NCBI GenBank assembly: GCA_026706635.1
Contig: JAPOYJ010000065.1
Location: 1 to 32,244 of the forward strand
Source of the DNA: Gemmatimonadota bacterium
GTDB taxonomy: Bacteria > Gemmatimonadota > Gemmatimonadetes > Longimicrobiales > Gaopeijiaceae
Length of the DNA: 32,244 bases
Direction of reading: 5' to 3'
Each line of letters starts with the position of its first letter. The first letter of the stretch is position 1. Below, piece after piece: positions 2,535 to 32,244 of the stretch. The position numbers were made by a program, and so were the translations under genes. The notes beneath the pieces were generated by a model, which made no database searches, was not told the DNA's origin, and saw only the letters and a list, made by a program, of their open reading frames with translations.

Positions 2535-2849
2535 ATGCAGCCCTGGAAGATCAGCGCGGGACTCACCGCCGCACTCGCCGGGTCGGCGTTCCTACTCGGC
2601 GGATCCCGCCTCGAATACCTCGCACCCCATTGGCCAGCGATCCTCGCCGGACACGGAATCGTGCTCCTCCTCCACGCCACGCTCGCGCTAACCGCCGTCG
2701 CGGCCGCGATCTACGCCATCGCTCGCACCACCGGGCTCGCGGACCTCGGCCGCCGCGTCGATCTCGCCGAGCGGTCCGTCCGGCGCGGCGAGGGCGATCC
2801 CGGCCTCTCGGACTCCCTCCGGCAGGATGACGAGGGAGAATGGGAATGA
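2535..2849 (+). CDS. Small two-helix membrane protein of unknown function
   Basis: The product is 104 residues long, with a clear ribosome-binding site (AAGGAGAG, about 2520-2527) before the ATG. Residues about 6-25 form a first hydrophobic segment. Residues about 34-66 form a long second one rich in Ala/Leu/Val, ending IYAIART. The remainder is a charged, probably cytoplasmic tail rich in Arg, Asp and Glu. No family is recognised. It sits between the Replic_Relax-like gene and the excisionase-like gene, and its stop overlaps the preferred start of the latter. That places it in the element's transfer/maintenance operon. Small membrane proteins in this position can act in entry exclusion or mating-pair functions, but nothing in the sequence proves that. 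Confidence 0.7.
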   Translation: MQPWKISAGLTAALAGSAFLLGGSRLEYLAPHWPAILAGHGIVLLLHATLALTAVAAAIYAIARTTGLADLGRRVDLAERSVRRGEGDPGLSDSLRQDDEGEWE

Positions 2850-3274
2850 CTCGGAAGCGCGGACGGAAGGCCAGATCCGCATCCGTGGAGGGCCTGCCCG
2901 CCGACTGGCGGAAGCGGGCCAAGGTGATCCGCCGCTACGGGGGCGACACCCCGGCCACGGCGATCGAACGTTGCGCCGAAGACCTAGAAGCCACGCTTGT
3001 CGAAAGGGACGGGACCACCTACTCGCTCGTTGAAGCCGCTCGCGAGAGCGGATACTCCGCCGATCACCTGGGCCGCCTGGTTCGCGACGGCAAGATCCCC
3101 AACGCCGGACGGCCCGGCGCGCCCAGAATCGCCCTCAAGGACCTCCCCCGGAAAGCCAACGCGCCAACCGAGCCGCGACTGGCGCGCAAGCCACCGCGCC
3201 GCGAGCTTTCAAATGCGCAGATCGTGCAGTCCATCATCGAGAAAGGAATCGAAGATGGCACGCACGAAACGTGA
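2846..3274 (+). CDS. Excisionase-like helix-turn-helix protein
   Basis: The chosen ATG at 2846 overlaps the preceding stop (ATGA) and lies 8-10 bases after GAGGGAG. An ATG two codons earlier (2840) is possible but sits too close to that site. The product of about 142 residues has a basic N-terminus and a central MerR/excisionase-type helix-turn-helix: SLVEAARESGYSADHLGRLV followed by RDGKIPNAGRPGAPRI. This is the usual pattern of small DNA-binding excisionases that bend attachment DNA and direct the integrase to excise. The C-terminus (AQIVQSIIEKGIEDGTHET) overlaps the integrase start by 20 bases, so the two are co-translated. The same C-terminal peptide recurs as a remnant ahead of the second integrase in this window. 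Confidence 0.7.
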   Translation: MTRKRGRKARSASVEGLPADWRKRAKVIRRYGGDTPATAIERCAEDLEATLVERDGTTYSLVEAARESGYSADHLGRLVRDGKIPNAGRPGAPRIALKDLPRKANAPTEPRLARKPPRRELSNAQIVQSIIEKGIEDGTHET

Positions 3275-4421
3275 CCGGCGCGCATACAGCGCTGGTGAAT
3301 GGGGCCGGAACCGGGTTCGGATCTTCCCCGATCCCAAGACCGGCTTTTTCCAGATCGAGTGGCGGGAGAACGGACGTAGACTCACCCGGTCGCTGAAACA
3401 CCGCGACTGGGCGCGCGCGAAGGGGCAGGCGGATCAGTTCGCCGCTGGGTTCATTGACGCGCCGAACGGCAAGACCGAAGCTGAGCCCGAGCCGCTCACC
3501 CTGGAAGGGCTTTTTGACATTTACCGAGACGAGGTAACCCCCACCAAGAGTGAGCGGGCGCAGAGGTACGACCGCCGCACGATGGAGATGTTCCTCCCGT
3601 TCTTCGGCAGGCACCGCAAGCCCGCGACACTCTCCCAACGCGATTGGGACCGGTTCATCCGGGCGCGGCGCGCAGGCAGGGTCGGGCGCAGTCGCAGGCC
3701 GGTGTCTGACCGGACCATCGAATACGATCTGAAGTTCCTGCTTGCGATCCTCAACTGGGCAGCGAAATCGAGGGACGAGGAGGGAAGACTCCTGCTCGAT
3801 TTCAACCCGCTGAGGGGCCTTAAGGTGCCGAAGGAGAAGAACCCGATGCGCGTGGTTCTCACGGACGAGGAGTACGAGGCGCTGCTCAGGGTGTCGCGAC
3901 GGGTTGACTGGCGGTTCGGCGTGGCGCTGGTCATCGCCCACGAAACGGGACACCGTATCGGCGCGATCCGCCAGCTTCGATGGTTGGACATCGACCTAGA
4001 GGACAAAACCATCCGGTGGCGTGCCGAGAATGAGAAGACCGGATACGAGCACCGGACACCGATCACGGTCGAGGTGCTCGCTGTCCTGGACGAGGCACGG
4101 ATGCGGAGCCCCAAGACTGGGAACGCTCCCGTGTTGCCCGCGCCGAAAGACCCATCGAGATGCTTGGACCGGTCTAGGGTGCGCGTATGGTGGCAGAAAG
4201 CCGAGACGCTTGCAGGACTGGAACCGAAGCGCGGTAGAGGTTGGCACTCCTTGAGGCGCAAGTTCGCATCTGACCTCATGGACCAGCCGCTGAAGGTCCT
4301 CTGCGAGCTGGGCGGCTGGAAGACGCCCCACACGACCCTCCAGTGCTACCAGCACGCAGACGTGGATCGGCTCAGAGAGGCTCTTGAGGACCGCCGCAGG
4401 GTCTGCTCGCGACCCAATTAG
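3255..4421 (+). CDS. int: Tyrosine recombinase/integrase (element integrase 1)
   Basis: The 388-residue start is set at the ATG at 3255. A ribosome-binding site (AAAGGAA) lies before it, and the paralogue at 28973-30133 begins with the same MARTKR sequence. The open frame continues upstream, but that stretch is the excisionase-like gene in another frame. Residues about 80-185 are a SAM-like core-binding domain (LTLEGLFDIYRDEV onward). The catalytic domain shows the full set: Arg234 in ETGHRIGAIRQLRW, Lys261, His331/Arg334 in HSLRRKF, Trp355 in LGGWKT and nucleophile Tyr365 in QCYQHAD. The N-terminal 60 residues with GEWGRNRVRIFPDPKTG form an arm-type DNA-binding region. In this family the enzyme inserts and excises the element at an attachment site. 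It ends 50 bases before tRNA-Val. Confidence 0.93.
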   Translation: MARTKRDRRAYSAGEWGRNRVRIFPDPKTGFFQIEWRENGRRLTRSLKHRDWARAKGQADQFAAGFIDAPNGKTEAEPEPLTLEGLFDIYRDEVTPTKSERAQRYDRRTMEMFLPFFGRHRKPATLSQRDWDRFIRARRAGRVGRSRRPVSDRTIEYDLKFLLAILNWAAKSRDEEGRLLLDFNPLRGLKVPKEKNPMRVVLTDEEYEALLRVSRRVDWRFGVALVIAHETGHRIGAIRQLRWLDIDLEDKTIRWRAENEKTGYEHRTPITVEVLAVLDEARMRSPKTGNAPVLPAPKDPSRCLDRSRVRVWWQKAETLAGLEPKRGRGWHSLRRKFASDLMDQPLKVLCELGGWKTPHTTLQCYQHADVDRLREALEDRRRVCSRPN

Positions 4422-4471: not shown

Positions 4472-4546
4472 GGGCGCTTAGCTCAGTTGGTCCAGAGCGC
4501 CTGCCTTACAAGCAGGAGGTCGGCGGTTCGAATCCGTCAGCGCCCA
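4472..4546 (+). tRNA. tRNA-Val (anticodon TAC)
   Basis: A 75-nt cloverleaf can be folded by eye. The acceptor stem is GGGCGCT (4472-4478) paired with AGCGCCC (4539-4545), with discriminator A4546. The D-arm is GCTCAGTTGGTCCAGAGC. The anticodon stem CCTGC/GCAGG encloses loop CTTACAA with anticodon TAC, which reads Val codons. The T-arm contains GGTTCGAATCC. CCA is not encoded; the bases that follow are CTCT. The gene appears intact. It begins 50 bases past the end of integrase 1, but no duplicated 3' fragment of this tRNA is visible next to the integrase. Confidence 0.95.
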
Positions 4547-5777: not shown

Positions 5778-6953
5778 CCGGTCCTCCTCCTGGATCTGCG
5801 CCGCCACCGCCTGCACCTCCTCCAGGACCCGCAATAGGTTATCGCTCCAGAGCATCGCGATCTCCTCCTCCGTGTAGCCTCTGCGGACCAGCTCGAGGGT
5901 CACGTTGAAGGTCTCCGACGCGTCGTCCCACCCATTCACTCCGCCGCCGCCGTCGAAGTCGGAGCTGATCCCGACGTGCTCTATCCCGATCAGCTCGACC
6001 ATGTAGTCGATGTGGTCCACGAAGTCGGCGACGTCCACCACCTCCTCGGCCTTGGTCCTGTCGACAAAGCTCCTGACGGGCACGGCGTGCACCACCCCGC
6101 CATTCGCCGCCACCGCGTGGAGCATCTCGTCGTCCAGGTTGCGGCTGACGTCGGCCAGGGCTCTGACGGAGGAGTGGGAGGCGATGACCGGTGCCCGCGA
6201 GAGCTCGAGCGTCTGCATGATCGACTCCCTGGAGGGGTGGGATATGTCGACGATGATGCCGAGCCGGTTCATCTCGGCGATCGCCAGGCGCCCCATCTCG
6301 CTCAGGCCGCCGTGCATCCAGTCGCCCTCCTCCTCGCCCGTGTGCGAGTCGGAGAGCTGGTTGTGGCCGTTGTGCGCGAGCGACATGTAGCGTGCGCCCA
6401 TCCCGTGGAACTCCTCGATCCGCCCGATCTCCTCGCCAAGCGGATAGGCGTTCTCCACCCCGATCATCGCGACCAGCCTGCCCGCGGCCGCGATGCGGCG
6501 GGCCTCGTCCGCAGTGAGGGCCACCTCGATGCGCTCCGGGGCGAAGTCGGCGGCGAGGCGGTGTATCGCCTCGAACTTGTCGATCGCGTTCGCGTAGGCG
6601 GCCGCGTACCCGTCGGCGTCCAGCGGTCCCTGGCGGGTGTAGACGACGAACCACCCCACATCCAGCCCGCCCTCCTCCATCTTGCCCAGCGTGGCCTGGG
6701 TGGGCAGCTCCATCGAGTAGTTGCGTTCGATGGTGAAGTTGTCCGTGTCGATGTCGATGTGCGTGTCGAGCGTCAGCACGCGCTCGTGGATTGCTCTCGC
6801 CCTCTCGGGGAGCTCCTCGTCGCCGCCGGTGTCCTGGGACGAGGCGAGGCCGGGCGAGAGGGCGACGGCGAGGAGCGCGCAGAACGCTCCGAGACGGTGG
6901 AGCGTGCCGAGACGCTCTAGAGGGTGTGGCCGACGGGGCTGGTGGTTGCGCAT
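5754..6953 (-). CDS. Membrane dipeptidase (peptidase family M19), secreted
   Basis: The 399-residue protein starts at the ATG whose complement is 6951-6953, preceded on the minus strand by AGGAG. The N-terminus has a basic stretch, then LGAFCALLAVALSPGLASSQ, a signal peptide for export. The M19 zinc-site residues are in place: His65 and Asp67 (THIDID), bridging Glu167 (GVEN), His239 (DISH), His260 (ASHSS) and Asp332 (SSDFDG). Family members hydrolyse dipeptides, including those with a D-residue, and some cleave beta-lactam-like substrates. Periplasmic or surface peptide turnover is the likely role, matching the S9 peptidase elsewhere in the window. It is transcribed toward and overlaps the DUF819 gene, and is divergent from the BtuF-like gene across a 118-base gap. 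Confidence 0.93.
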   Translation of the reverse strand: MRNHQPRRPHPLERLGTLHRLGAFCALLAVALSPGLASSQDTGGDEELPERARAIHERVLTLDTHIDIDTDNFTIERNYSMELPTQATLGKMEEGGLDVGWFVVYTRQGPLDADGYAAAYANAIDKFEAIHRLAADFAPERIEVALTADEARRIAAAGRLVAMIGVENAYPLGEEIGRIEEFHGMGARYMSLAHNGHNQLSDSHTGEEEGDWMHGGLSEMGRLAIAEMNRLGIIVDISHPSRESIMQTLELSRAPVIASHSSVRALADVSRNLDDEMLHAVAANGGVVHAVPVRSFVDRTKAEEVVDVADFVDHIDYMVELIGIEHVGISSDFDGGGGVNGWDDASETFNVTLELVRRGYTEEEIAMLWSDNLLRVLEEVQAVAAQIQEEDRLAAHHAQ

Positions 6954-22570: not shown

Positions 22571-22664
22571 GTCCGTGGACGATCTCGCGCGAGCACCGAG
22601 AGGCGCGAAGCGCTGGCGGTCCGTGGACAGGCCCGGACGAGCACCGAGACCGGCGAAGCGCCCC
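22571..22664 (+). repeat. Two-unit dispersed repeat upstream of sprA
   Basis: Two related units begin with GTCCGTGGAC at 22571 and 22619. Each continues to a GAGCACCGAGA core and a GCGAAGCGC end. The same two-unit block, same order and orientation, occurs at 28784-28878 after sprA. Internal palindromes such as CTCGCGCGAG suggest hairpins. It lies between the divergent lptF and sprA starts. Confidence 0.8.
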
Positions 22665-22697
22665 GCTGGCAAGGCGCGACGAAGCGGTCCAGCGGGG
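22661..22697. repeat. 9-bp inverted repeat within the sprA upstream repeat array
   Basis: CCCCGCTGG (22661-22669) pairs perfectly with CCAGCGGGG (22689-22697) across a 19-base loop. It joins the two-unit repeat to the 48-bp repeat copy. Confidence 0.6.
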
Positions 22698-22745
22698 ATG
22701 CAGCGCGCCTCGAATGCCGTGGGAGGCCTGTCCACGGGCTGCTAG
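22698..22745 (-). repeat. 48-bp dispersed repeat, inverted copy upstream of sprA
   Basis: The reverse complement of these 48 bases matches 17679-17726 at 47 of 48 positions. It carries the same CCGTGG/CCACGG hairpin and ends 25 bases before the proposed sprA start. Confidence 0.85.
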
Positions 22746-22770
22746 GGCACTGGCAGCCCGGAGTGGCCCC

Positions 22771-28783: not shown

Positions 28784-28878
28784 CAGCCCGTGGATAATCT
28801 CGCGCGAGCACCGAGAGCGGCGAAGCGCTGGCGGTCCGTGGCCCGGACGAGCACCGAGACCGGCGAAGCGCCGGGCTG
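28784..28878 (+). repeat. Two-unit dispersed repeat downstream of sprA
   Basis: The block starts 5 bases after the sprA stop. It is bounded by a 7-bp inverted repeat, CAGCCCG (28784-28790) and CGGGCTG (28872-28878). Inside are the two GAGCACCGAGA...GCGAAGCGC units also found at 22571-22664; the second unit lacks a few bases after GTCCGTGG. It could act as a terminator for sprA. Confidence 0.8.
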
Positions 28879-28881
28879 ACA

Positions 28882-28972: not shown

Positions 28973-30133
28973 TCAGCCGCGAGCCCGGCGGCGGTCTTCC
29001 AGAGCCTTCCGAAGCTGTCCCTCGTCGGCTCTCTGATAGCACCGAAGCACCGTCTTGGCCGTCTTCCAGCCGCCGAGTTGGCAGAGCACCTTCAACGGCT
29101 GGTCCATCAGGTCGGAGGCGAACTTGCGCCGCAGCGAGTGCCAGCCCCGTCCGGGCTTCGGCTCCAGTCCCGCGAGCCGCTCGGCCCTGTCCCACCATCC
29201 CTGCGCCAACGCGGCACCCATGCAGGCCGACGGATTCCGGGGTGCGGGCATGATCGGGGCATCCCCAGCAGCGGGATTCCAACTCCGCGCCTCCTTCAAG
29301 GCATCCAAGGCCTCGTCCGTGACCGGCGTGATGTGCTGGTAACCCGACTTGTCGTGTTCGGCGCGCCAGACGATGGCCCCGCCCTCGAAATCGATGTCCT
29401 GCCACCGAAGCTGGCGGATGGCACCGACCCGGTGGCCCGTTTCGTGCGCGAGCACGAGCGCGACATGGAACCGCCAGTCCACCCGCCGCGACACCTTCAG
29501 GAGCGCCCCGTACTCCTCTTCTTGGAGCACCACCCGGTTCGGGTTCTTCTCGCGCGGCGTCCTGAGCCCCCTGAGCGGGTTCCGGTCGAGCAGCAACCGG
29601 CCCCGCTCGTCGCGGGACTTCGCCGCCCAGTTGAGGACGGCGATCAGGAACTTCAAGTCGTATTCGACCGTCCGGTCCGCCACCGGCCTGCCACTCGGCC
29701 CGATCCTGCCAGCGCGACGCTCCCGGATGAATCGGTCCCAGTCCCTCTGAGACAGGGTCGCCGGGTCGCGGGACAGTCCGAAGAGGTCGAGGAACATCCG
29801 CATCGACGTTCGGTCGTGCTGCCGCGTGTGAGCGCCCTTGGCGGGCGTCACCTCCTGACCGTAGATGTCAAAGAGCCGCTCCAGAGTGAGCGGCTCGGGC
29901 TTGGCTTCCGCCCCGCCCCCGATCTCCGGGCCGGCGAACCCGGCGGCGAATTCGTCCGCCTGCCGCTTCGCGCGCCGCCAGTCACGGTGCTTGAGGGACC
30001 GGGTGAGCCTGCGCCCGTTCTCCCGCCACTCGATCTGGAACATGCCGGTCTTCGGGTCCGGGAAGATCCTGACCCGGTTCCGGCCCCATTCGCCAGCGCC
30101 GTACGAGCGCCGACTTCGTTTCGTGCGTGCCAT
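28973..30133 (-). CDS. int: Tyrosine recombinase/integrase (integrase 2, paralogue of integrase 1)
   Basis: The ATG with complement 30131-30133 gives 386 residues starting MARTKRSRRSYGAGEWGRN, collinear with integrase 1. By eye most positions in the N-terminal 60 residues and around the active site are identical. The catalytic residues are complete: Arg235 (ETGHRVGAIRQLRW), Lys262, His332/Arg335 (HSLRRKF), Trp356 (LGGWKT) and Tyr366 (RCYQRAD). Divergence is concentrated in residues 65-125 and 245-315. GAGAGGAA before the start can act as ribosome-binding site. No transfer genes are seen on this side within the window, and the excisionase-like gene that precedes integrase 1 is reduced to a fragment here. 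So this may be the last active gene of a decayed or very small element, although the enzyme itself looks functional. Confidence 0.92.
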   Translation of the reverse strand: MARTKRSRRSYGAGEWGRNRVRIFPDPKTGMFQIEWRENGRRLTRSLKHRDWRRAKRQADEFAAGFAGPEIGGGAEAKPEPLTLERLFDIYGQEVTPAKGAHTRQHDRTSMRMFLDLFGLSRDPATLSQRDWDRFIRERRAGRIGPSGRPVADRTVEYDLKFLIAVLNWAAKSRDERGRLLLDRNPLRGLRTPREKNPNRVVLQEEEYGALLKVSRRVDWRFHVALVLAHETGHRVGAIRQLRWQDIDFEGGAIVWRAEHDKSGYQHITPVTDEALDALKEARSWNPAAGDAPIMPAPRNPSACMGAALAQGWWDRAERLAGLEPKPGRGWHSLRRKFASDLMDQPLKVLCQLGGWKTAKTVLRCYQRADEGQLRKALEDRRRARG

Positions 30134-30173: not shown

Positions 30174-30406
30174 GAACCAAGTATCGCGGAGGGAGGGCTT
30201 CTCCGCCAGTGTCTCCCACGCTCGTACCCAAGGGACCCCACCGATGCGCGCACGGATCGCGGGCGACGGGAACATGCGGGGCCTCGAACGGTATCATAGG
30301 CAGAACCCTCGGGCCGTTGGTTCCTACGCTTCAAGCGACCGGGATGGCCCGGCAGAAAGAGCAGAACCGAATGTCAGGCGGAACCCTGGACGAAAGGGCG
30401 AGGACC

Positions 30407-31048
30407 GTGAAGAAGCTGCTTGGACTTGCAACCGCCGTCGTGGTGTTCGCGTGCGGAGATACCGAACCGGAGAACCAAGCGCCGGTCGCCGTCGGCGACA
30501 TTCCACCCGTCACCCTGACGGAAGAGGACGTTTTCACGGAGACGGTATCGGCGTTCTTCTCCGACCCGGACGGTGACGAGCTCGCCTACTCGGCGAAGTC
30601 GTCGGCCGCAAGCGTGGTGACCCCCTCGATGTCGAACGACACGATCATGGTGAAGGCGATGGCTGCCGGAACGGCGATGATCACCGTCACGGCGACCGAC
30701 CCCGGCGGGCTGTCGGCCAGCCAGACCGCCGATTTCACGGTAGAGAGGACCAACCGGGCGCCCGTGCTGAACCTGCCCATCAACGACATGACCATCGTGG
30801 AAGACGGCGAGACCGATTTCCTTCTCTCGTACCACTTCTATGATCCGGACCGTGACGACCTCACCTATGCGGCGATTTCATCGGACGCCGATGTGGTGTC
30901 GGTCGCGATCGACACTTGGAGCATCGTGATCACCGCAGTCGCCGTGGGGACGGCGGAAATCGAGGCCACAGCCACCGACACGGGCGGTCTGTCCGCCTCG
31001 GACACGTTCACGGTGACGGTCGTCAAGGACGACGGGGACAAGGAGTAG
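30407..31048 (+). CDS. Lipoprotein with two cadherin/Ig-like repeats
   Basis: The GTG at 30407, after GCGAGGA, gives 213 residues beginning VKKLLGLATAVVVFAC, a textbook lipoprotein signal with lipidated Cys16. In-frame ATGs at 30344 and 30371 would add a poorly fitting N-terminal extension. Two tandem domains of about 90 residues follow, at roughly 22-112 and 115-205. Each starts N(Q/R)APV, carries a DPD(G/R)D(E/D)L calcium-binding-like turn (FFSDPDGDELAYSA; FYDPDRDDLTYAA) and ends ATD(P/T)GGLSAS followed by a closing strand. These resemble cadherin-like or BIG-type surface domains used in adhesion or matrix binding. The gene is divergent from integrase 2, so it may be cargo of that element. 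Specific function is unknown. Confidence 0.8.
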   Translation: MKKLLGLATAVVVFACGDTEPENQAPVAVGDIPPVTLTEEDVFTETVSAFFSDPDGDELAYSAKSSAASVVTPSMSNDTIMVKAMAAGTAMITVTATDPGGLSASQTADFTVERTNRAPVLNLPINDMTIVEDGETDFLLSYHFYDPDRDDLTYAAISSDADVVSVAIDTWSIVITAVAVGTAEIEATATDTGGLSASDTFTVTVVKDDGDKE

Positions 31049-31289
31049 GAAGCTACGCCATGAGCCAGTCAGTCTTCCCCGTTTTCGCGTCACGGGCTAC
31101 GATTGAAGTGCTGTTTTCGAGGCGGTGCTCGGAATCGACGCGGGAGGTCGATCCAAGACCCGGAATGGACGGGTCGGTGTCCGGATGAAGCCGCACATGT
31201 GCAACAGACCCGATGTGCGCGGAATCGCCGTTCGGACGTGCAGGTCTCCGGCTACGCAAGTCGTTGTCCAGCTTGCGTTTGCGCCACGA

Positions 31290-31324
31290 CCTCCGGGGCG
31301 GCGATGCCGCGCGGGAAACGGAGG
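31290..31324. repeat. Nested hairpin
   Basis: CCTCCG (31290-31295) pairs with CGGAGG (31319-31324). Inside it GCGGC (31298-31302) pairs with GCCGC (31306-31310) around the loop GAT. It lies immediately before the first 93-nt structure. Confidence 0.5.
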
Positions 31325-31329
31325 CCGTG

Positions 31330-31422
31330 CCCGTAGCGACCCACCCTTTTCGATGCCTGTTGTGGCATCGAGCGGGGTTGGGATGTGCATTGCATCCCAC
31401 CCCCGCAGCGGGTCGCTACGGG
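31330..31422. other. 93-nt three-way-junction-like structure 1
   Basis: The outer arms CCCGTAGCGACCC (31330-31342) and GGGTCGCTACGGG (31410-31422) are perfect 13-base complements. Inside are two hairpins. TCGATGCC/GGCATCGA (31350-31357 / 31364-31371) closes a 6-base loop. TGGGATG/CATCCCA (31379-31385 / 31393-31399) is extended by GGGG/CCCC with a one-base bulge. The result is a compact three-way junction that could form in RNA or extruded DNA on either strand. Confidence 0.55.
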
Positions 31423-31748
31423 TCCAGCAGTCCTTTGCAGGAAGGCCGGAGGACGCTCACGGTGGGGGCATCCCGACTCTCGGCAAGAGGGACCGCTGCC
31501 TCGAACCGGCAGTCTCCATGGACGGGGGGTGAAACCCGGACGGGGGCCGTTGCGTAGCGACAGAAGCGGATCGCGGTGCCGGGGCCAAGGCCGTCGCGGG
31601 TGGCCGGAGTCGGCAACCACGCGGGCGGGCGCGGGCAGGAGAGCGGCGCGGGCGGTTTCGGCAACGGCGGCAGCCGGAGGAGGATCGGGTTGCTCCACCG
31701 CGTCCCGAAGCGGCGTTCGGACGGCCTTCCCGCCAGGGATTGTTTGGT

Positions 31749-31841
31749 GCGGGAGCGACCCCAGGAGGGCAGGGGCGAGGTGTGAATCTCCACCTCGTCC
31801 CGAACCCGTACCGAGCCCTTGGCGAGGGGGGTCGCTCCCGC
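31749..31841. other. 93-nt hairpin structure 2
   Basis: GCGGGAGCGACCCC (31749-31762) and GGGGTCGCTCCCGC (31828-31841) are perfect 14-base complements. They enclose a second stem of up to 11 pairs around CGAGGTG/CACCTCG (31776-31782 / 31791-31797). The total length equals that of structure 1, and the arms share AGCGACCC, which suggests the two are related elements. Confidence 0.55.
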
Positions 31842-31949
31842 CACGGCCCCAGCCGCTCGCGTGCCACGGGCCACCGGGCGGCCGGGCCGCAAGACGTTGC
31901 CGCACATCACGATAAGCAGGACGGCAGGTGTGCATCGGAGGCAGACCGA

Positions 31950-31983
31950 AGTGTGAATCGACCCCCCATGTCGTTTTCACACT
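31950..31983. repeat. 8-bp inverted repeat
   Basis: AGTGTGAA (31950-31957) pairs with TTCACACT (31976-31983); CGA/TCG can extend the fold inside. GTGTGAATC also occurs in the loop region of structure 2 (31780-31788). Confidence 0.45.
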
Positions 31984-32208
31984 CCGGTGCGGTCGTAAAC
32001 GGGAGCGCCGGGGCATGGGGCGGGGCCGATGCGTCCGGGAACCTGCACCGCAGGCAGCCGATGGGCATCTAAGTCGGCCCTGACCCGATCGGGATAGTGG
32101 TGGCGGAAGAGGACCTGTCTCCGGGTGCTGGAAACCGGAGATTCGTGACCTTCCTCGTCCGACTTGACGCCGAGCCCTTGCGGAATGGCGTGTCGAGAGC
32201 AAATGATA

Positions 32209-32244
32209 TGTCCGCTTTTCGGAGCACGCAATGTGTCCGCTTTT
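32209..32244 (+). repeat. Direct repeats at the window edge, possible insertion-sequence end
   Basis: TGTCCGCTTTT occurs at 32209-32219 and again at 32234-32244, 25 bases apart. Short tandem copies beginning with TG resemble the multiple transposase-binding sites at ends of IS21-type elements. No transposase gene is inside the window, so this is tentative. Confidence 0.35.

Follow-up and report, generated by a model that had tools for sequence, protein, structure and literature searches.

The 93-nucleotide (nt) stem-loop described here is the centre of a structured repeat of about 300 nt, designated U, which forms outward-reading inverted pairs beside a tyrosine recombinase gene in relaxase-less integrative elements and lies singly next to virD4 in their conjugative relatives. 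We propose that U is an oriT-like (relaxosome) site that lets the conjugative relatives mobilise elements without a relaxase. The anatomy of U was observed directly, and its oriT function, which we infer from this anatomy, seems to us plausible and a little short of probable.

Results

Two inverted stem-loops in the window

The window, which is the whole stretch of DNA analysed (32,244 nt), contains the following features, where L and R denote the two units of the U pair and INT the recombinase.

28870..28881, minus strand: inferred att core TGTCAGCCCGGC, read outward from INT; half of the repeat REPX starts here, and this is the recombinase-side end of the element (boundary inferred)
28976..30133, minus strand: INT, tyrosine recombinase of 386 aa (PF00589), with the R-K-H-R-W-Y catalytic residues conserved in the family alignment
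30371..31048, plus strand: cargo gene for a 225-aa Ig-like (Big_9/Big_2) putative lipoprotein; its 3' end faces unit L
31066..31448, minus strand: unit L, reading outward toward INT and the cargo and containing structure 1; delimited by HMM and copy alignment, outer boundary approximate
31330..31422, no strand: structure 1, 93 nt with a 13-bp closing stem, inside unit L
31449..31721, no strand: core between L and R, of the 270-bp type; elsewhere about 70 bp, other filler or genes
31722..32011, plus strand: unit R, reading outward to the right and containing structure 2 and the covarying terminal hairpin
31749..31841, no strand: structure 2, 93 nt with a 14-bp closing stem, inside unit R
31951..31982, no strand: terminal hairpin of unit R, GTGTGAATCGAC...GTCGTTTTCACAC

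A preliminary description of the window had pointed to a perfect 14-bp stem spanning exactly 93 nt at 31749-31841, and this was confirmed: GCGGGAGCGACCCC (31749-31762) pairs exactly with GGGGTCGCTCCCGC (31828-31841). The equal span claimed for structure 1, which starts 419 bp upstream of the start of structure 2, proved correct as well, with a perfect 13-bp stem between CCCGTAGCGACCC (31330-31342) and GGGTCGCTACGGG (31410-31422). Folded as DNA and compared with dinucleotide shuffles, structure 2 has an energy of -34.2 kcal/mol (z -5.65; none of 200 shuffles was as good) and structure 1 of -39.0 kcal/mol (z -9.12). The two were also said to differ in their interior hairpin. Their interior sequences do differ, but structure 1, when reverse-complemented, aligns with structure 2 end to end with few gaps, and by this alignment they share a single architecture in inverted orientation and are not unrelated hairpins.

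A chance palindrome was excluded by the shuffle folds, by the conservation of length in relatives and by covariation. A protein-coding explanation was likewise set aside, as no long open reading frame spanning the region, in either direction, matches Pfam. The stem-loop region matches no Rfam family at the gathering score, and no intrinsic terminator-like or promoter-like site was found in the region with a tool that assumes sigma-70.

The repeat U and its two subtypes

Within this genome, region 31084-32011 recurs on contig C13 (83%) and, truncated, on contig C58 (89%), while contig C57 has two half copies, both of the right half; the left half, reverse-complemented, aligns with the right half. 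Each unit has, besides the multibranch 93-nt stem-loop, a small hairpin of the CCC-GCAA-GGG type and a terminal hairpin, and in relatives of unit R the last of these shows the compensatory change GTGTGAA/TTCACAC vs GTGCGCA/TGCGCAC. The subtypes L and R stay distinct, L being the unit that adjoins the recombinase.

L and R are adjacent in 26 of 44 loci, always with their inner ends facing each other, that is, as an outward-reading inverted pair; these loci were partly picked for having both units, so that the count informs on orientation and gap and not on frequency. A fixed spacing of the pair, which the preliminary description had raised, was not seen across genomes: the gap is about 70-90, 160 or 250-380 bp, or 0.7-2.7 kb. 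Its companion suggestion that the intervening segment varies was borne out by differing filler and, in the long gaps, by genes such as one for a small outer-membrane-like protein. Loss of the common length and independent occurrence of the two structures had been named as evidence against a pair; the length is kept in relatives, but U is also found singly. In several loci (L074/L075 3808-3916, L058 1213-1350, L056 55-201) the outer half of a second R unit follows close after R, which looks like a tandem duplication of the outer hairpin region.

Conservation and covariation

Of the 22 other genomes in the genus, 20 have matches to U, many of them in several copies; the HMM searches took the window and its relatives as their starting point. 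The sequence pattern of the unit gives up to 32 matches per genome in this genus vs 0-4 for a reversed-pattern control; nearly all genomes are MAGs in which repeats break contigs, so that copy counts are lower bounds. Enrichment of the pattern extends to genus g12 and to two genomes from another family; the other members of the phylum that were sampled stay at background. The enrichment in genomes G116 and G281 is genuine; that in G179 came from matches unlike U, which we took as chance. The strict pattern was found on no viral contig.

Among 123 de-duplicated copies, 97 keep AGCGACC...GGTCGCT. The inner span of these 97 is 82-87 nt in all but one (96), and 49 of them measure 92-93 nt from stem to stem, a length kept despite wide variation of the inner sequence. 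In an alignment of 33 R units, 91% of the cells in three named helices are paired, as against 36-53% with the partners slid, 51 cells are changed on both sides vs 23 after shuffling, and the covariation score is 0.190 vs 0.116 shuffled. Sequence relatedness inflates such scores, and the slid controls nonetheless come nowhere near. An apparent strand-specific RNA signature in our first G-U counts disappeared when pairs were predicted on both strands: G-U and A-C cells then numbered 12 and 16 in R and 38 and 32 in L, and given this balance there is no sign of selection on one RNA strand.

Recombinase, cargo and insertion site

INT matches PF00589 with an E-value of 2.3e-16, and its catalytic residues are conserved in 12 of 12 aligned sequences. 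It lies on the outer side of L in most paired loci, either directly or with one cargo gene between. The element as a whole comprises INT, usually one or a few cargo genes, and the pair, which occupies its non-coding portion. The cargo differs by copy: it is a different small lipoprotein in C13, L055, L056 and L057, and in L065, L069, L089 and L162 the winged-helix protein GENE1 occupies the cargo position. The leader and start-codon region of the cargo is common to the window (30209-30400) and C13 (L025 2021-2220), whereas the cargo genes themselves are unrelated, which suggests a constant leader behind which the gene body may be replaced. A query dominated by the INT region gave roughly 8-34 matches per genome in the genus, and no plasmid relatives of INT or GENE1 were found. 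The window also contains a second INT homologue (3255-4403, plus strand) with an HTH/Xis-like open reading frame (2840-3271) ahead of it. This homologue stops 5' of a tRNA gene at 4472-4546, the junction bearing CGTAAGTTCAA, and the arrangement looks like the recombinase side of a further element that may have decayed.

About 100 bp past the INT stop codon the sequence enters, at a point common to the copies, half of a dispersed intergenic repeat, REPX. REPX is about 118-176 bp long and occurs in many places per genome, sometimes in tandem. The following lines list copies of it.

Locus L059, 783-1262: REPX
Locus L059, 6394-6800: REPX
Window, 22613-22746: REPX

The att core motif of the window and the same split of REPX follow INT in C13, L054, L055, L057, L059, L071 and others. 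L059 has the core TGCCAGCCCGGC at 1250-1261 and again at 6396-6407, with REPX copies outside both, and this delimits an element of 5.1 kb in the order cargo, R, core, L, INT. In three relatives (G012, G018, G005) the flanking genes are joined without the element, but also without REPX there, so that an exact empty REPX was not seen. From the split repeats and the direct-repeat core, the element appears to insert into REPX by site-specific recombination, and REPX is apparently the insertion target of INT.

The window holds the INT-side site only, the other end of the element lying beyond the end of the contig. The suggestion that the paired structures are the two ends or two members of one system is upheld in its second part: L and R stand side by side, and they are not the ends of the element. 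Its likely ends are the recombinase-side att site and, in L059, the second core copy beyond further cargo. At the contig end itself (32186-32244), a stretch of about 55 bp with repeated TGTCCGCTTTT motifs recurs at many contig ends of the same genome; it looks like the terminal repeats of an assembly-breaking insertion sequence, which at a guess is IS21-like.

Conjugative relatives, GENE1 and relaxases

The same recombinase family is carried by relatives of the self-transmissible type with T4SS and VirD4. On contig C40 of genome G010, genes for an AlpA-type regulator, VirB2, VirB4, VirB10/TrbI, a TrbJ-like protein (no Pfam match), VirB6/TrbL and VirB8 are followed by GENE1, a single U, VirD4, VirB11, ArdC, a wHTH-like protein, an Xis-like HTH protein and INT. 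GENE1-U-VirD4 is also the order in L122 and L226 (for L226, virD4 sits in the adjoining locus, L092), and L197 and L200 have it followed by INT. Small elements that lack virD4 retain GENE1-U as a module, and the 3' end of GENE1 faces the outer end of U in 12 of 12 instances within the 44 loci. Two further loci of the window's own genome, L023 and L128, have virD4 and GENE1 fragments with a DUF4102-type integrase and are remnants of conjugative elements.

GENE1 has no convincing family match in Pfam, NCBIfam or PDB (one copy, in L073, has a stop codon and was excluded from the alignment). Its identification as a relaxase by structure was abandoned, as the predicted model was too poor (pLDDT 56), and weak matches to plastid PAP1/pTAC3 in a PDB profile search (E 0.024) were taken as chance. 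The conjugative-element genes examined include no member of a Pfam relaxase family; PF03432 has no match on contig C40 of G010, and the MobH relaxase PF07514 has none in the genus. PF03432 relaxases are common in other elements of these genomes. INT lies beside the relaxase in 13 of 20 relaxase loci, and U in 1 of 20; conversely, relaxase matches occur in 6 of 44 U loci, of which five are incomplete at 73-159 aa and the sixth runs off the edge of its locus. In this modest, non-random sample, relaxase and U look like alternatives.

Discussion

U as a candidate transfer origin

U has several traits of an oriT: it is non-coding, contains inverted repeats and adjoins mobilisation/coupling genes. 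The relaxosome reading follows from the presence of U in both conjugative and relaxase-less elements and from its position next to virD4 in the former; it is supported by the repeated and structured nature of U, the GENE1-U-virD4 arrangement, the near-exclusion of U and relaxase, and published precedents.

On the simplest account, three kinds of element would have one recombinase in common. The conjugative ones would carry a single U, those with a relaxase beside INT would carry none, and those lacking a relaxase would carry cargo and the L-R pair. The relaxosome of the conjugative elements would bind U in folded form, as a single strand or a cruciform, and the relaxosome protein would be GENE1 and/or an unrecognised relaxase. 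INT would excise the small relaxase-less element as a circle, which a resident conjugative relative would nick at U and export. The inverted pair might, at a guess, allow initiation in either direction or serve two slightly different relaxosome specificities. Against an oriT function it should be said that neither a nic site in U nor a relaxase for the conjugative elements was found, and that the PF03432 relaxases encoded in other parts of these genomes could act on other oriTs.

The precedents are non-canonical IMEs that carry only an oriT and are devoid of relaxase (PMC5704250). Like them, the elements described here encode a recombinase of their own, carry cargo, appear to insert site-specifically, have no intact relaxase in the loci examined and contain a structured non-coding site common to self-transmissible relatives; unlike them, the site is a repeat of about 300 nt in an inverted pair with two fixed subtypes, and its oriT role is a proposal. 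The oriT of SGI1 is GC-rich, with several inverted repeats, and lies near mobilisation genes (PMC6414798). U resembles both this site and the oriT of pIGRK in GC-richness, in several inverted repeats and in its place beside mobilisation genes, and the AGCGA motifs of the pIGRK oriT are weakly similar (five bases) to the invariant stem AGCGACC of U. At about 300 nt and as an inverted pair, U is unusual beside the single 125-bp oriT of SGI1, and we count this against the oriT reading. Relaxases outside the canonical MOB families are known, namely MobK, TcpM and MpsA, which resemble tyrosine recombinases but lack the usual core/arm-binding domains (PMC8152469); INT, in contrast, is a full-length recombinase of about 386 aa. 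As expected of an ICE or IME, a site-specific recombinase is encoded beside the pair, and self-transmissible relatives have a T4SS, VirD4 and the same recombinase.

A bolder version of the proposal, which we consider unlikely, is that the inverted U pair and GENE1 make up a novel module for conjugative mobilisation, in which a transfer origin that is long, folded and two-sided is served by a relaxase or relaxosome protein outside all known families; a swarm of single-cargo integrative elements of sponge symbionts would use this module, which would cross bacterial phyla.

Other explanations of the repeat

There is a small but real chance that U is instead an arm-type binding region of INT or of a directionality factor, where L and R would hold INT near att and regulate excision, as in lambda-type integrases. 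L is the unit adjoining INT, at a near-constant distance in copies without cargo between them (157, 215-223 or 281-292 bp, depending on the subfamily), and the outer end of R has CGTAAG, which resembles the CGTAAGTTCAA found after INT. Recombinase arm sites, however, are short and not multi-hairpin; moreover, many INT copies, including those of relaxase-INT elements, have no detectable U, and the U of conjugative elements adjoins virD4 at kilobases from INT.

The covarying stems, the multibranch fold and the GNRA-like CCC-GCAA-GGG hairpin with its compensating variants would also suit a structured RNA, either small RNAs transcribed divergently out of the core or an attenuator/leader in the interval from GENE1 to virD4. 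We regard this as improbable in view of the lack of an Rfam match and of intrinsic-terminator-like or promoter-like sites (as judged with a sigma-70 tool), and because G-U and A-C cells show no strand preference, unlike the tendency of an RNA made from a fixed strand, and U is kept in elements without virD4.

More doubtful still is that L-core-R is a non-autonomous transposable unit (MITE/BIME-like) with 300-bp structured terminal inverted repeats, a transposase acting in trans and captured core cargo. L and R are indeed inverted relatives around a variable core that can carry genes, and the GTAG/GGAG before the stem recalls REP sequences, which share with U the arrangement of palindromic intergenic repeats in inverted pairs (REP/BIME). 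But U, at about 300 nt, is about ten times longer than a REP palindrome (~20-40 nt) and is linked to a tyrosine recombinase and T4SS genes, with no tie to a Y1 transposase noticed; in most copies L-R is tied to INT on the L side and not freely scattered, single units occupy a conserved operon position, and target duplications flanking L-R were not established.

Integron cassettes (IntI, attI, attC) offer a further likeness, in that a recombinase diverges from a single swappable cargo gene that is followed by a structured element. In contrast to integrons, the elements carry their own INT, which is not of the IntI type that an attC would call for (its best NCBIfam match, NF040815 for XerA/integron integrase, scores 36 bits vs a cut-off of 220), U is about 300 nt long and paired, and no GTTRRRY core was noticed in it by eye.

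Finally, an origin of replication for the excised or transferred circle, such as the single-strand origin (sso) reported for ICEBs1 (PMC4595007), would likewise be highly folded non-coding DNA of about 300 nt in a conjugative element, but this has a similarly slender chance of replacing a nicking site, as it explains the GENE1-U-virD4 neighbourhood no better than an oriT does.

Host range and significance

The named relatives of INT come from sponge-associated Gemmatimonadota, including a Candidatus Palauibacter MAG, and from MAGs labelled Gammaproteobacteria and Acidobacteria. The host lineage is Palauibacter-like and associated with sponges, the genomes being, as we take from the bin names and from general knowledge of the lineages, of sponge origin. 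Close INT relatives, several of them with U, lie on contigs of MAGs labelled Gammaproteobacteria or Acidobacteria (L145, L162, L164, L170, L181, L197, L213), and these occurrences reflect either transfer between phyla or mis-binning. Our search of the literature found no description of these elements, and a genome paper on Palauibacterales has no text on integrases, conjugation or repeats; the family of U elements in uncultured sponge-associated Gemmatimonadota is apparently undescribed.

The present analysis gives an anatomy for this large family of mobile elements, and in U it provides a concrete candidate transfer origin for conjugative elements in which no tested relaxase family was found. 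If U is indeed a transfer origin, relaxase-less hitch-hiking elements could be searched for by the repeat alone, and the 93-nt stem-loop would be a marker of gene exchange inside sponges.
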